Of a stretch of DNA of 43,037 nt, positions 22,799-28,067 are shown one piece after another; position 1 is the stretch's first letter, and each line of letters begins with the position of its first letter. Source of the DNA: a virus. The notes beneath the pieces are model-generated. The model was not told where the DNA came from. It saw only the letters and a program-made list of their open reading frames with translations, and searched no databases. Made by a program: the position numbers and the translations under genes. The stretch covers positions 1-43,037 of IMG/VR virus record IMGVR_UViG_3300043398_000403, one strand, 5' to 3'.

Positions 22799-23703
22799 CC
22801 GTCCAGTTCATCAGGGCCTACCGCGTGACAATCGGCGACACCGAGATCGACACTCGTACGGGCGTCGGGATCGGCAGCATGCACGTGGCCTTCGCCGTCC
22901 AGCGCGACACCAAGCGGGTGCCGAACAACGCGGAACTCGAGGTCTGGAACCTCGCGCCGTCCACGCGCGCGCGGCTGGTCAAGCTGACGGCCGTGCCGGT
23001 GCGCATCGAGGCGGGTTACCTCGGCAGCGACATCGGGACGATCTTCCTCGGCGACTTGCGCCGGGCGCACTCACGGCGTGAAGGCGCCGACATCATCACG
23101 CGCGCGTCCGCAGGCGACGGGCAGAAGGCCGTTCGGATCGCGAAGCTCGCCAAGACGTTCCCGGCCGGCACCAAGGTCGGGAGCGTGATCTCGGAGCTTG
23201 GCAAGGCGCTGGGCGTGAAGCCCGGGAACCTGTCGGCGTTCCAGGGCGCGCGGCTTCAGGACGGCAGCACCGCGCTCAAGCGCTCCCTCACGATCCACGG
23301 GGCGGTCTATGATGAGCTCGAGCGCATCTGCCGTTCGTGCGGGCTCGAGTGGTCCGTCCAGGACTCTGAATTGCAGCTGAAGGAGATCGGGAAGCCTGTC
23401 GGCTCGGCCGTCGGTGCGCAGGGGCCACTGTTGCGCGCGGACAGCGGCCTGATCGGCACGCCGGAGGTCGAGACCGCGGAGGAGGTGTCGAAGGGCGATG
23501 CGAAGAAAGCTGCAGCCGTCAAGGGGCAGGTGATTGTCTCGGGCACGTGCCTGCTTCGGAGCGACCTGCGACCGGGGCTTCCGTTCCGCGTCGAGTCAGA
23601 TGCGTTCACCGGCAATCTGGTATGTAGGACGACGGAGCACAGAGGCGACAGTCACGGGACCGGGGAGGACTGGACCGTCACATGGTCCGGCGTGCCTTAT
23701 TAG
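22795..23703 (+). CDS. Baseplate hub protein (gp27/gpD-like), 302 aa
   Basis: It sits between plug and spike. The N-terminal beta domain (RVTIGDTEIDTRTG; AELEVWNLAPSTRARL; AGYLGSDIGTIFLGDL) is the usual start of hub proteins of this class. A central helical/beta part contains SLTIHGAVYDELERIC followed by a GLEW strand, and the C-terminal part has LLRSDLRPGLPFRVES. It would form the trimeric hub linking tube to spike. The start overlaps the 58-aa gene stop (ATGA). Confidence 0.75.
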   Translation: MTVQFIRAYRVTIGDTEIDTRTGVGIGSMHVAFAVQRDTKRVPNNAELEVWNLAPSTRARLVKLTAVPVRIEAGYLGSDIGTIFLGDLRRAHSRREGADIITRASAGDGQKAVRIAKLAKTFPAGTKVGSVISELGKALGVKPGNLSAFQGARLQDGSTALKRSLTIHGAVYDELERICRSCGLEWSVQDSELQLKEIGKPVGSAVGAQGPLLRADSGLIGTPEVETAEEVSKGDAKKAAAVKGQVIVSGTCLLRSDLRPGLPFRVESDAFTGNLVCRTTEHRGDSHGTGEDWTVTWSGVPY

Positions 23704-23727
23704 CTCTCAAGTCACGAGCGCGAGCGC

Positions 23728-23740
23728 CGTTCAGAGGAAC
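23728..23740 (+). promoter_or_regulatory. CGTTC-N8-ATG leader motif (copy 3 of 5)
   Basis: GAGCGCCGTTCAGAGGAAC ends at ATG 23741; CGTTC is eight bases from the start codon. It is in the short gap after the hub gene. Confidence 0.7.
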
Positions 23741-23947
23741 ATGAATGACAACATGCCTTGGCGACCTGAGCAGATCAAACGTGAAGCCGGTCGAATCTAC
23801 AAGGCCGCAGTCCAGGCGGTCGTGGACGACGTAAACGCAGCTGACGGCACGTTGGATCTACTCGTTGTTGAGCACATCCTTCGCGCCGTGCTAGAGGTCT
23901 TGTCACCCGAGCAGCGCGCCTCGATTCTTCGAAAGGTTTCCAGATGA
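23741..23947 (+). CDS. Small helical hypothetical protein, 68 aa
   Basis: A mostly helical 68-residue protein (IKREAGRIYKAAVQAVVDDV; LLVVEHILRAVLEVLSPEQR) that probably forms a small helical bundle. ATG 23741 is preceded by the CGTTC leader motif; its stop overlaps the next ATG. The hub and spike genes flank this group of three small genes. The function is unknown. Confidence 0.65.
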   Translation: MNDNMPWRPEQIKREAGRIYKAAVQAVVDDVNAADGTLDLLVVEHILRAVLEVLSPEQRASILRKVSR

Positions 23948-24240
23948 ACCGCAACTGGAAATGCCCGGAACGCTGGGTGCTCGGCGGGCGGCATGCGTCG
24001 CACTGTCAGTCGAAAGGCTGCCAATCCGTCGGCCCGCACCCGGATGCGCCGCCTCCGTCCGAGTCGAGCGTTCGCGTCGCGCCGTCGCAGCTGCCGCAGT
24101 GCCCGTATGGGATCGCGCGGCTGGACTGCGACTATCACAAGACGCCGCAGGCGCCCGCGAGCGAGCAGGGGCCGTACGATTACGCCACGCCAGATGCCTG
24201 GATCGACATCCCCGGTTGCAACTGCGGCAGGTGCCGGTGA
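23944..24240 (+). CDS. Cys-rich hypothetical protein, 98 aa
   Basis: Eight Cys and several His are spread along the chain (WKCPERW; HCQSKGC; QCPYG; DCDYH; GCNCGRC), suggesting one or two zinc sites or disulfides. The middle is Pro/Ser-rich. ATG 23944 overlaps the preceding stop, and the TGA overlaps the next GTG. Position suggests co-expression with baseplate genes, but Cys-rich baseplate proteins are not usual. The function is unknown. Confidence 0.65.
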   Translation: MNRNWKCPERWVLGGRHASHCQSKGCQSVGPHPDAPPPSESSVRVAPSQLPQCPYGIARLDCDYHKTPQAPASEQGPYDYATPDAWIDIPGCNCGRCR

Positions 24241-25147: not shown

Positions 25148-25150
25148 GAT
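25145..25150 (+). promoter_or_regulatory. Predicted -10 box (TAGGAT), leaderless start
   Basis: TAGGAT overlaps the spike stop codon and lies seven bases before GTG 25158, as at other leaderless starts here. No clear -35 is present. Confidence 0.4.
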
Positions 25151-25157
25151 GGGCGCC

Positions 25158-25331
25158 GTGGAATCATCTCGTCCGGTTCGCCCTGCGCCCATCGTGCCAA
25201 TCGAGCGCCCCACCAAGGTTGTGCATCGCGCGCCTGGGCACGAGGACTACTTCGGTCCGACGCCCGCGGCGGTTGATGTGTACCACTATGATGAGGACTG
25301 CGCCTTGTTTCTCGAAGGTGATTGGACCTGA
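25158..25331 (+). CDS. Small YFG-motif protein, paralogue A, 57 aa
   Basis: The core is RPAPIVPIERP, then VVHRAPGHEDYFGPTPAAVD, and the end is EGDWT. A second gene at 28064 encodes the same pattern (KPAPIIAVN, then EEYFGDTPPCADV, end WGDWD). GTG 25158 fits the TAGGAT box; an in-frame ATG at 25149 is the alternative start. The stop overlaps the gp25-like gene (TGATG). The two copies lie one before each of two baseplate gene groups. The function is unknown. Confidence 0.65.
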   Translation: MESSRPVRPAPIVPIERPTKVVHRAPGHEDYFGPTPAAVDVYHYDEDCALFLEGDWT

Positions 25332-25705
25332 TGGCGTTCAACCTCGGGTTCAATGTGCGTGGCGATCTGGCACTGTCCGAGGATGGGACGGAACTGCTCC
25401 TGACGTCCGGCGCGCCGATGGCGCAGCGCCAGATCGAAGCCGGCTCGGAGATCTGGACCGGCACGCTCGCGTGGGACCCGGACGCGGGCCTGCCGATGCT
25501 CGGGCAGATCTTGGTCAAGGGGCCCGACCTGCGGGTGATCCAGCAGATCTTCCGGGACTTCCTGCTTGAGACCGCCGGGGTGACGTCCGTCCTGGAACTC
25601 AGCTGCAACCTGGACCGGAGCGCTCGAGCGCTGACCGTCCGATTCAAGGTCCTGTGCGAGGACGGGTCTACGGCTTCCGACGAAATCGGCTTCACGTTCG
25701 CCTGA
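25331..25705 (+). CDS. Baseplate wedge protein (gp25-like), 124 aa
   Basis: The sequence GDLALSEDGTELLLTSGAPM, QRQIEAGSEIWTGTLAWDPD, GLPMLGQILVKG and the final alternating strands fit the small gp25/GpW-type wedge proteins that start sheath assembly in contractile tails. It precedes the gpJ-like gene, as usual. ATG 25331 has AAGGTG at 25315-25320 and overlaps the upstream stop. Confidence 0.78.
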   Translation: MAFNLGFNVRGDLALSEDGTELLLTSGAPMAQRQIEAGSEIWTGTLAWDPDAGLPMLGQILVKGPDLRVIQQIFRDFLLETAGVTSVLELSCNLDRSARALTVRFKVLCEDGSTASDEIGFTFA

Positions 25706-25748: not shown

Positions 25749-25955
25749 ATGCACAACATCGTGATCGAAACCTCCCGCTCCGGCAACCACACCGTTTGGT
25801 GCACCAACGCGATCGCCCCGGGCGGCGTCAACTGCCTCGGCCCCATTGCCGCCCGCCACGGTGACGCGATCGACGTCATCCCGAAGGCGCTCGAGCGCGC
25901 CCGCCTCATGGGCTACAACCCCAATCCGAACGTCGAGCTTCGCCGCTTCGGATGA
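25749..25955 (+). CDS. Small hypothetical protein, 68 aa
   Basis: A short mixed strand/helix protein (HNIVIETSRSGNHTVWCTNA; AIDVIPKALERARLMGYN) with two Cys. It starts after the CGTTC leader motif. Its last 14 codons lie in the left arm and loop of a perfect 24-bp inverted repeat, and its stop overlaps the next ATG. The function is unknown. Confidence 0.6.
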   Translation: MHNIVIETSRSGNHTVWCTNAIAPGGVNCLGPIAARHGDAIDVIPKALERARLMGYNPNPNVELRRFG

Positions 25956-25978
25956 GCTCGACGTTCGGATTGGGGTTG
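25916..25978. repeat. Perfect 24-bp inverted repeat, 15-base loop
   Basis: The left arm is 25916-25939 (begins CAACCCCAATCC), the right arm 25955-25978 (ends GGATTGGGGTTG). They are exact reverse complements. The loop 25940-25954 contains the ATG of the gene at 25952. The arms encode the C-terminus of one protein and the N-terminus of the next. There is no T-run, so it is not a standard terminator. Confidence 0.92.
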
Positions 25979-26311
25979 ACCTGGCGACACCGGGTCGCGA
26001 TTCGAGATGCGGCGCCCTACGGGGCGCCGAGTCGTTTGGAGGGAAGGCTGAAGCCGCTGCACGGGTCCGACGTGCAGGACTGGCTGGTCGCGAACGGGCT
26101 CGGCGGGCCCGGCAACGTCGAGGCGTTCCTGGACGACATGGTTCAGCGCGGGATGCTTCGGCGCCTCGGCAAGTTCCTGGTCCAGCGGCAGGAACTCGCG
26201 AAGCGAGCGTCCAGCGCGTCCGGCTGGGCTGACAATTCCCCCTTGCATTTCTGGTACGAAGCGCTGGCGGGCCCGCCCTGCCCCTGGTATCGGGCGCCCG
26301 CAGGCGAGTGA
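25952..26311 (+). CDS. Hypothetical protein, 119 aa
   Basis: ATG 25952 overlaps the upstream stop and sits in the loop of the inverted repeat. Residues ~30-75 (LKPLHGSDVQDWLVANGLGG, then EAFLDDMVQRGMLRRLGKFL) look like a helix-turn-helix or winged-helix-like helical domain. The C-terminus is Trp/Pro-rich. The first ten residues come from the right arm of the repeat. The function is unknown; it could be DNA-binding. Confidence 0.5.
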   Translation: MSSTFGLGLTWRHRVAIRDAAPYGAPSRLEGRLKPLHGSDVQDWLVANGLGGPGNVEAFLDDMVQRGMLRRLGKFLVQRQELAKRASSASGWADNSPLHFWYEALAGPPCPWYRAPAGE

Positions 26312-26313
26312 CG

Positions 26314-26343
26314 TTGGACGCACGGGCCGGAACGTGTTAACGT
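26314..26343 (+). promoter_or_regulatory. Predicted leaderless promoter for homing endonuclease 2
   Basis: TTGGAC (26314-26319), 18-bp spacer, TAACGT (26338-26343), then six bases to GTG 26350. It shares the ending GTTAA(C/G)GTCC with the promoters at 8943 and 17041. Confidence 0.6.
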
Positions 26344-26349
26344 CCAGCC

Positions 26350-26922
26350 GTGCCCGTCGCAATCTACTCGATCAAGCATCGCGCAACCGGCAACGAGTAC
26401 ATTGGACTGACGGCGCATTCGCTGGCCCGACGTTTCGCGCAGCATCAGCACGCGGCCAGTCGCTGTCACAAGCTGCGGAATGCGCTAAAGAAGTATGGGC
26501 CTGACGCGTTTCACGTTCGTGAGGAGGCGTCGCTTCCGACTCGACACGAGGCTGCCATTGCGGAGCGAATTCTGATCGCGGTGCGAAAGCCGGCGTTCAA
26601 CATCACGCCTGGCGGCGAAGGCCGTGTCGGCAAGCGTTCGCATTCTCCCGAAACGCGAGCGAAGATCTCAGCTGCGCTGACCGGTAGGAAGCTGACGAAC
26701 GAGGCGACTCGGGCGAAGCTAAAGGCTCGTAAGCCCGCCAATAAGGGCGTCCCGATGGCCCTGGACGTTCGCGCGAAAGTGTCCGCCGCCAAGCGTGGCG
26801 TGAAGCCATCGCCAGAAACAGTTGCTAAGCGAGCTGCGAGCAACCGCGAATACTGGAGGTCTGACGAGGGCCGCGCGAAAGCCCGCGATCTGGCCTTCCG
26901 GAGGTGGCGATGCCCCCGCTGA
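26350..26922 (+). CDS. GIY-YIG homing endonuclease with NUMOD3 repeats (copy 2), 190 aa
   Basis: The GIY-YIG core is at residues 3-85: AIYSI, NEYIGLT, an Arg in ARRFAQHQ, the catalytic Glu in AIAERILIA, and FNITPGGEGR. NUMOD3-like repeats follow (SPETRAKIS, NEATRAKLK, SPETVAKRA). It has the same plan as the copy at 12108 and shares NALKKYGPDAFHV-type sequence with it. The GTG start has no ribosome binding site but a promoter six bases upstream. Its 3' end overlaps the gpJ-like gene start and supplies that gene's GGAGG site. Confidence 0.9.
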   Translation: MPVAIYSIKHRATGNEYIGLTAHSLARRFAQHQHAASRCHKLRNALKKYGPDAFHVREEASLPTRHEAAIAERILIAVRKPAFNITPGGEGRVGKRSHSPETRAKISAALTGRKLTNEATRAKLKARKPANKGVPMALDVRAKVSAAKRGVKPSPETVAKRAASNREYWRSDEGRAKARDLAFRRWRCPR

Positions 26923-28067
26923 CTGACACGGGTTTCGAACGGCGAACGCAGGCCGACATCCTCGAATCGATTCAGGATGCGCAGCGTTCGACCATCAGCG
27001 CCAAGCTGGACCTGTCCAACCGGACGGTGCTCGGTAGCCTGAATCCGATCTTCGCGGAGCACGTCGACCAACTCGAGCAACTCGCCGAGGAGGCCTACAA
27101 CGCCTTCGACCCGGACAGCGCCAGCGACGACCGTTTCGTCGCGATCTGTCTGCTAACGGGCGTCCCGCGGCGCGGCGCAACGAAGGGCCTGGTCACGGCC
27201 ACGGTCAACCTGCAGGCGAGCAAAACCTACGCCGCGGGCGACCTGGTGGCGCACGTCACGGACGAGCCCACGAACCGTTGGCTGAATCGGGATGCCATCA
27301 CGTCGACGACGGCTGGCAACTATTCGGCGGTTTTCGAGTCCGAGTTCGCGTCGAGCAGCGCGGTTGCGCTGGCGGGCACGCTCACGGTGATCGCTAGCCC
27401 AGTCGACGGCTGGAACTCGATTACCAACGCGGCGGACGCGGACGCAGGCACGGACATCGAATCGATCGAGGCGCTGCGCCTGCGCCGCGAGCAAGCGGTC
27501 TCGCTGGGCGGGTCCCGCACGCGCAACTCGATCCGCGCGAAGATTGTCAGCCTCGACGGCGTCCTGAGCTGTGAGATGTTCGAGAACGTCACCAGCGCCA
27601 CCGACGGCAACGGGCTGCCCGCGCATTCGATCCGGGCTGTCGTGTGGGATGGCAGCACGCCGGCGGCGGACGATGATGAAATCGCGCAGGCCATCTGGGA
27701 TCACAAGGCGGAGGGCATCTCGAGCGGAGGCGGCGAGTCCGGCACGGCGCAAGACGAAGTTGCTGGCCCGCAAACCGTCAACTTCGCGCGCGCCGTTGAG
27801 TCCGCGATCACTGTCGAAGTCGACATTGAGTCGACGGCGGGCGTCAGCGCGGACGACGTCAAGGCCGCCATTATCGCGCAGATGCCAACGCGCGTTGGGC
27901 AGGGCGTCACGTACAACAAGCTCACGCAAGCCGTGTTCGACGTCGAGGGCGTGGACAACTGGACCTTGTTCGAAATCAACGGGGCGACAGCGAACCTGCC
28001 GGCGCTCATCACGACGATTTACACCTTGAGTTCGGGAGACATCACTGTGACGGGGGATGCAACATGA
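26910..28067 (+). CDS. Baseplate assembly protein J-like wedge, 385 aa
   Basis: This is a main wedge component of simple contractile baseplates. GFERRTQADILESIQDAQRS at the start, the ALRLRREQAVSLGGSRTRNS motif near residues 191-210, LPAHSIRAVVWDGS, and the final ADDVKAAIIAQMPTRVGQGV pattern match the Baseplate_J/gp47 family. ATG 26910 has GGAGG five bases upstream, inside the homing endonuclease gene. Confidence 0.9.
   Translation: MPPLTDTGFERRTQADILESIQDAQRSTISAKLDLSNRTVLGSLNPIFAEHVDQLEQLAEEAYNAFDPDSASDDRFVAICLLTGVPRRGATKGLVTATVNLQASKTYAAGDLVAHVTDEPTNRWLNRDAITSTTAGNYSAVFESEFASSSAVALAGTLTVIASPVDGWNSITNAADADAGTDIESIEALRLRREQAVSLGGSRTRNSIRAKIVSLDGVLSCEMFENVTSATDGNGLPAHSIRAVVWDGSTPAADDDEIAQAIWDHKAEGISSGGGESGTAQDEVAGPQTVNFARAVESAITVEVDIESTAGVSADDVKAAIIAQMPTRVGQGVTYNKLTQAVFDVEGVDNWTLFEINGATANLPALITTIYTLSSGDITVTGDAT

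Follow-up and report, generated by a model that had tools for sequence, protein, structure and literature searches.

A perfect 24-bp inverted repeat at the stop codon of a small open reading frame in a variable insert between phage baseplate genes

The gp25/gpJ junction and its insert

The window, i.e. the whole stretch of DNA analysed (43,037 nt), is a virus record with head, contractile-tail sheath and baseplate genes. Its features of interest are listed in Table 1. Two small open reading frames (ORF1 and ORF2) and a free-standing homing endonuclease gene are located between the Gp25-like and GpJ-like baseplate wedge genes. The palindrome described here lies where ORF1 ends and ORF2 is annotated to begin.

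Table 1. Positions of the palindrome and of neighbouring features in the window.
Feature	Position	Strand	Remarks
Gp25-like baseplate wedge gene	25331..25705	+	left border of the insert
ORF1, 68 aa	25749..25955	+	coding-like codon use; no database relatives
Arm 1 of inverted repeat	25916..25939	+	CAACCCCAATCCGAACGTCGAGCT; codes for part of the ORF1 C-terminus (YNPNPNVEL)
Loop, 15 nt	25940..25954	+	TCGCCGCTTCGGATG; holds the first two bases of the TGA stop codon and the ATG at 25952-25954
ORF2 as annotated, 119 aa	25952..26311	+	read from ATG 25952; part before ~26048 probably non-coding
Arm 2	25955..25978	+	exact reverse complement of arm 1; first base completes the stop codon; probably non-coding
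Second GC-rich hairpin	26010..26029	+	CGGCGCCC-UACG-GGGCGCCG; 3' of the palindrome, 5' of GGAGGG
GGAGGG, Shine-Dalgarno-like	26038..26043	+	4 nt 5' of CTG 26048; candidate region of the true ORF2 start
GIY-YIG/NUMOD3 homing endonuclease gene, free-standing, 190 aa	26350..26922	+	49% local identity to the L011 endonuclease at the same junction
GpJ-like baseplate wedge gene	26910..28067	+	right border of the insert; own GGAGG within the 3' end of the endonuclease gene

Nine relatives with 60-69% protein identity in these baseplate genes were found by a search from which records very close to the window may be missing. In eight of them (L012, L013, L014, L089, L090, L093, L095 and L109) gp25 and gpJ are joined by a 9-nt spacer with no insert; the ninth (L011) carries only a related endonuclease at this junction. 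Because the relatives lack ORF1, ORF2 and, L011 excepted, the endonuclease, these three were regarded as a lineage-specific insert. The eight bare spacers and the one endonuclease standing alone mark the region as recent and variable. A DNA search of the phages collection with the 2.8-kb region gave no match, and none of twelve endonuclease relatives was accompanied by ORF1 or ORF2.

GIY-YIG endonucleases occupy the same gp25/gpJ junction at 26350-26922 of the window and at L011:3144-4001, in two phages related at ~62-65% identity, with the eight other junctions bare. Judged from these sequences, insertion into the baseplate genes recurs at this point. A predicted fold (26305-26375; -30.3 kcal/mol) encloses the GTG start of the endonuclease gene and, by analogy with T4-type endonucleases, possibly hides it; L011 lacks such a fold. 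Elsewhere between the baseplate genes, the small ORFs at 25149-25330 and 23700-23960 appear to differ from their positional counterparts in the relatives with 60-69% identity, which suggests that these junctions are hypervariable. Among cellular genomes, the gp25-like gene had a single relative, on the Sorangium sp. MAG contig L109, which hints weakly at myxobacteria as hosts of these phages.

Codon use of ORF1 resembles that of the phage's own genes up to the end of the ORF. The last 17 codons had a coding score of 0.25 (27% of true-gene windows score 0.25 or lower). Single-sequence modelling gave a compact beta-beta-beta-alpha-beta fold (pLDDT 73), in which arm 1 corresponds to the last strand. 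No relatives of ORF1 were found in viral_contigs or phages, no match in Pfam, PHROGs or NCBIfam, and no match with E < 0.1 when the model was compared with viral structures using Foldseek.

Geometry and predicted folding of the palindrome

The two arms are exact reverse complements over all 24 bp (100%), and 15 nt separate them, as a preliminary description of this DNA had stated. Its remark that a T-run is absent also holds, arm 2 being followed by ACCTGGCGACACC. What is firm at the boundary of loop and arm 2 is the stop codon that ends ORF1 (TGA, 25953-25955), which thus lies within the palindrome. Within the loop, CCG-CTT-CGG can form a small inner hairpin.

With up to 3 mismatches allowed, the arm sequence had a single site in the window (0.00 expected from shuffles). 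In 60 first-order Markov simulations of the window, which keep its dinucleotide make-up, the longest perfect arm measured 11-15 bp, and the second-best real arm in the window measured 13 bp (loops of up to 100 nt in both cases). In 822 kb of phage DNA, comprising the window and the fetched phage loci, the next longest perfect arms were 18, 16 and 14 bp (loops of up to 60 nt). A chance origin of the 24-bp palindrome is excluded. An exact search of IMG/VR with an 18-mer from the arm returned two matches, both in contigs without similarity to the window; they were taken as chance.

As RNA, the palindrome is predicted to fold with -52.5 kcal/mol (z = -11.6). The second hairpin follows 31 nt on; the stretch that holds it, 26005-26036, is predicted to fold with -22.9 kcal/mol (z = -5.0). 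Scanning the window against Rfam gave no match at the curated cut-off and only weak matches to generic long hairpins. No comparable palindrome was found at the gp25/gpJ junction of the relatives checked, including the L011 insert. Since these relatives lack both flanking ORFs, comparison of the junctions is no test of the palindrome.

Two further perfect inverted repeats were seen in other phage loci. One, of 18 bp with a 19-nt loop, is located between gpV-like and gp25-like genes (L025:3319-3373, also L026) and is identical in two datasets. It is enclosed by a possible 25-aa ORF that overlaps the neighbouring gene at either end; no close relative was found from which an ancestral state could be traced. 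Like the present palindrome, it is perfect and lies where baseplate genes meet, here in a distant relative, but it differs in sequence, in the junction occupied and in lying within a separate possible tiny ORF, and there is no homology. The other is a GC-rich 14-bp repeat with a 30-nt loop directly past an ATGA (L033:7585-7642), which may be a gene junction.

Coding signal of ORF2 and its start

The ATG at 25952 lies in the hairpin loop, as the preliminary description noted; that it starts the gene is doubtful on coding signal. The 32 codons that follow had a coding score of -0.18, a value reached or undercut by 0.1% of 932 in-gene windows. The score returns to 0.43 at 26048-26232, ~96 nt past the ATG. 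No Shine-Dalgarno sequence for ATG 25952 was found in or near the stem. The candidate start CTG 26048 follows GGAGGG at a spacing like that between the gpJ gene and its GGAGG; genes rarely start with CTG. By chance alone, about one in four genes ending in TGA would show ATGA at the stop. Codon scores are also low elsewhere in the insert (endonuclease, 0.1; ORF2 C-terminus, -0.39) and are a poor guide where genes may be foreign. Single-sequence modelling of ORF2 gave a poor model (pLDDT 46, with residues 1-38 below 50), which would weakly agree with a late start. No ORF2 relatives were found in viral_contigs, genome_contigs, phages or plasmids, and no match in Pfam, PHROGs, NCBIfam or PDB sequences.

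ATG 25952 is therefore probably not the start of ORF2. Because the codon score is low past this ATG and the signal is back from 26048, behind GGAGGG, arm 2 is probably a non-coding copy. The gene model can be corrected accordingly: ORF2 probably does not start where annotated, and what separates the two baseplate genes here is a variable insert. An ATG inside a hairpin loop is, by itself, no evidence of an RNA switch.

Origin of the palindrome and comparison with known systems

The reading that we favour, with moderate confidence, is a single fold-back template switch that copied the end of ORF1 behind itself and left a very stable hairpin at its 3' end, perhaps acting as a passive terminator or insulator. 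The growing strand would have folded back via a small imperfect hairpin at the 3' end of ORF1 (GAGCT..CCG..CGG..AGCTC), copied ~20-24 nt of the ORF1 end and then switched back, which would place an exact inverted copy directly past the ORF1 stop codon. The inner pairs GAGCT/AGCTC and CCG/CGG present in the sequence are a possible seed for such a fold-back. The arms are perfect reverse complements at short distance and exceed chance expectation, and the lack of decay over 24 bp is what a single recent copying event would leave. Of the two arms, arm 1 is more likely the original, as it sits in the coding-like ORF1 and encodes the last predicted strand of the model. The event may have arisen in, or arrived with, the lineage-specific insert of ORF1, ORF2 and the GIY-YIG endonuclease. 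Since relatives of ORF1 and ORF2 were not found, no ancestral sequence is available for the copying event or for the direction from arm 1 to arm 2 that we infer. An inverted duplication had been proposed before, as the source of a new N-terminus. The duplication is the best-supported origin; the N-terminus fared less well, being non-coding-like in its codons and preceded by no Shine-Dalgarno sequence.

In the resulting mRNA, the stop codon is predicted to lie at the centre of a hairpin of about -52 kcal/mol, followed 31 nt on by the second GC-rich hairpin, before GGAGGG. If this has any effect, a passive one is the most plausible: between ORF1 and the endonuclease part, a hairpin cluster with no U-tract might slow or partly end transcription or shield the mRNA end. 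However striking, the palindrome is probably an ordinary relic of mutation, left by a known kind of event where a gene ends within a variable phage insert.

The palindrome could instead owe its making or its survival to selection. A cis-acting RNA hairpin under selection, which translation of ORF1 opens so that reinitiation is coupled at the ATGA, or which keeps ORF2 and the endonuclease off, is unlikely. The ATG in the loop overlaps the stop codon in a layout common for coupling, the RNA fold is very stable, and control by hairpins is documented for the phage homing endonucleases I-TevI, segB and mobE (PMC2988022). The GTG start at 26350 is likewise inside a predicted fold (z = -2.9), but the start of the L011 endonuclease is not (z = +1.0). 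The hairpin sits at ORF2, ~370 nt upstream of the endonuclease start, and its stem was not found to hold a Shine-Dalgarno sequence together with a real gene start, ATG 25952 having none nearby and being followed by codons that are not coding-like. None of the relatives was found to carry the site, so none shows compensatory changes. The narrower form of this idea, in which the palindrome is a selected RNA element of the mobile endonuclease insert and ribosomes finishing ORF1 open the stem and so gate ORF2 and the endonuclease, is very improbable; to our knowledge, no stop-codon-centred switch of such a kind has been described. The RNA switch on the downstream start that had been suggested earlier has no direct support, as the start is doubtful and neither an Rfam family nor a relative with the structure was found. 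A selected, functional terminator that closes ORF1 as a separate accessory gene unit and overlaps its stop is unlikely. The hairpin does coincide with the stop codon, another GC stem follows after 31 nt, and hairpin-cluster terminators are reported to need no U-tract (PMC8355165). Against this reading, the GC stem is not followed by the T-run of a canonical intrinsic terminator, and a terminator scan detected nothing at the palindrome and no regional excess (10 found, 11.2 expected). Stems of 24 bp exceed the usual length in intrinsic terminators. Termination here would cut expression of the essential gpJ downstream, barring another promoter. A scan with the sigma-70 consensus, which may not be that of the host, gave a single promoter-like site over 19 kb, located elsewhere and on the opposite strand, and none within the hairpin. 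With gpJ downstream and no promoter recognised in between, complete termination is unlikely.

Two explanations concern the DNA itself. An assembly or library fold-back artefact in the metagenome contig is improbable. The record is a single virus contig, and the arm occurs in no second record save the two chance matches in unrelated contigs. A fold-back chimera, however, would go on to repeat the upstream sequence in reverse complement; arm 2 enters unique sequence after exactly 24 nt and is followed by ORF2, the endonuclease and the expected gpJ in the same order as in the relatives, which argues against the fold-back artefact raised in the preliminary description. A k-mer misjoin would not set the shared word twice 15 nt apart, and records from two datasets agree exactly in the comparable 18-bp perfect hairpin of L025/L026. 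A recombination or protein-binding site, such as a recombinase crossover site or a scar or target of homing endonuclease insertion, is extremely unlikely. The palindrome does lie inside a mobile insert and near an endonuclease gene, but it is set back from both edges, by ~210 nt on the left and ~930 nt on the right. The arm has no second copy in the window, and the palindrome does not recur at insert edges: neither the L011 insert nor any of the eight uninterrupted junctions contains it. The earlier proposal of a recombination site is accordingly unsupported.

In T4-type homing endonucleases (I-TevI, segB, mobE), RNA hairpins hide ribosome binding sites (PMC2988022). The palindrome is likewise very stable and located in a phage insert carrying a GIY-YIG endonuclease. 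Unlike those hairpins, its stem holds no ribosome binding site and precedes a different ORF, and no internal promoter was found. Hairpin clusters lacking a U-tract have been described at terminators, nearly all of them no more than 80 nt from a stop codon (PMC8355165). The present site, with two predicted hairpins inside that distance and no T-run, resembles them, but differs in that the first stem is 24 bp long and overlaps the coding end.

The favoured fold-back template switch has closer counterparts. Template switching is documented to create perfect hairpins (PMC8794818, PNAS 2022) and is reported to act at quasipalindromes in E. coli (PMC7202029). The palindrome shares with such hairpins a long perfect stem, a short loop, the lack of a sequence family, an inner imperfect seed and a plausible one-step origin. 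Those cases are supported by ancestral or parental sequences; for the present site none was found, and it overlaps the end of a phage gene on the 3' side. Should the copying-slip origin be true, the palindrome would be a clean phage example of one replication error giving rise to a long perfect gene-end hairpin in a single step.
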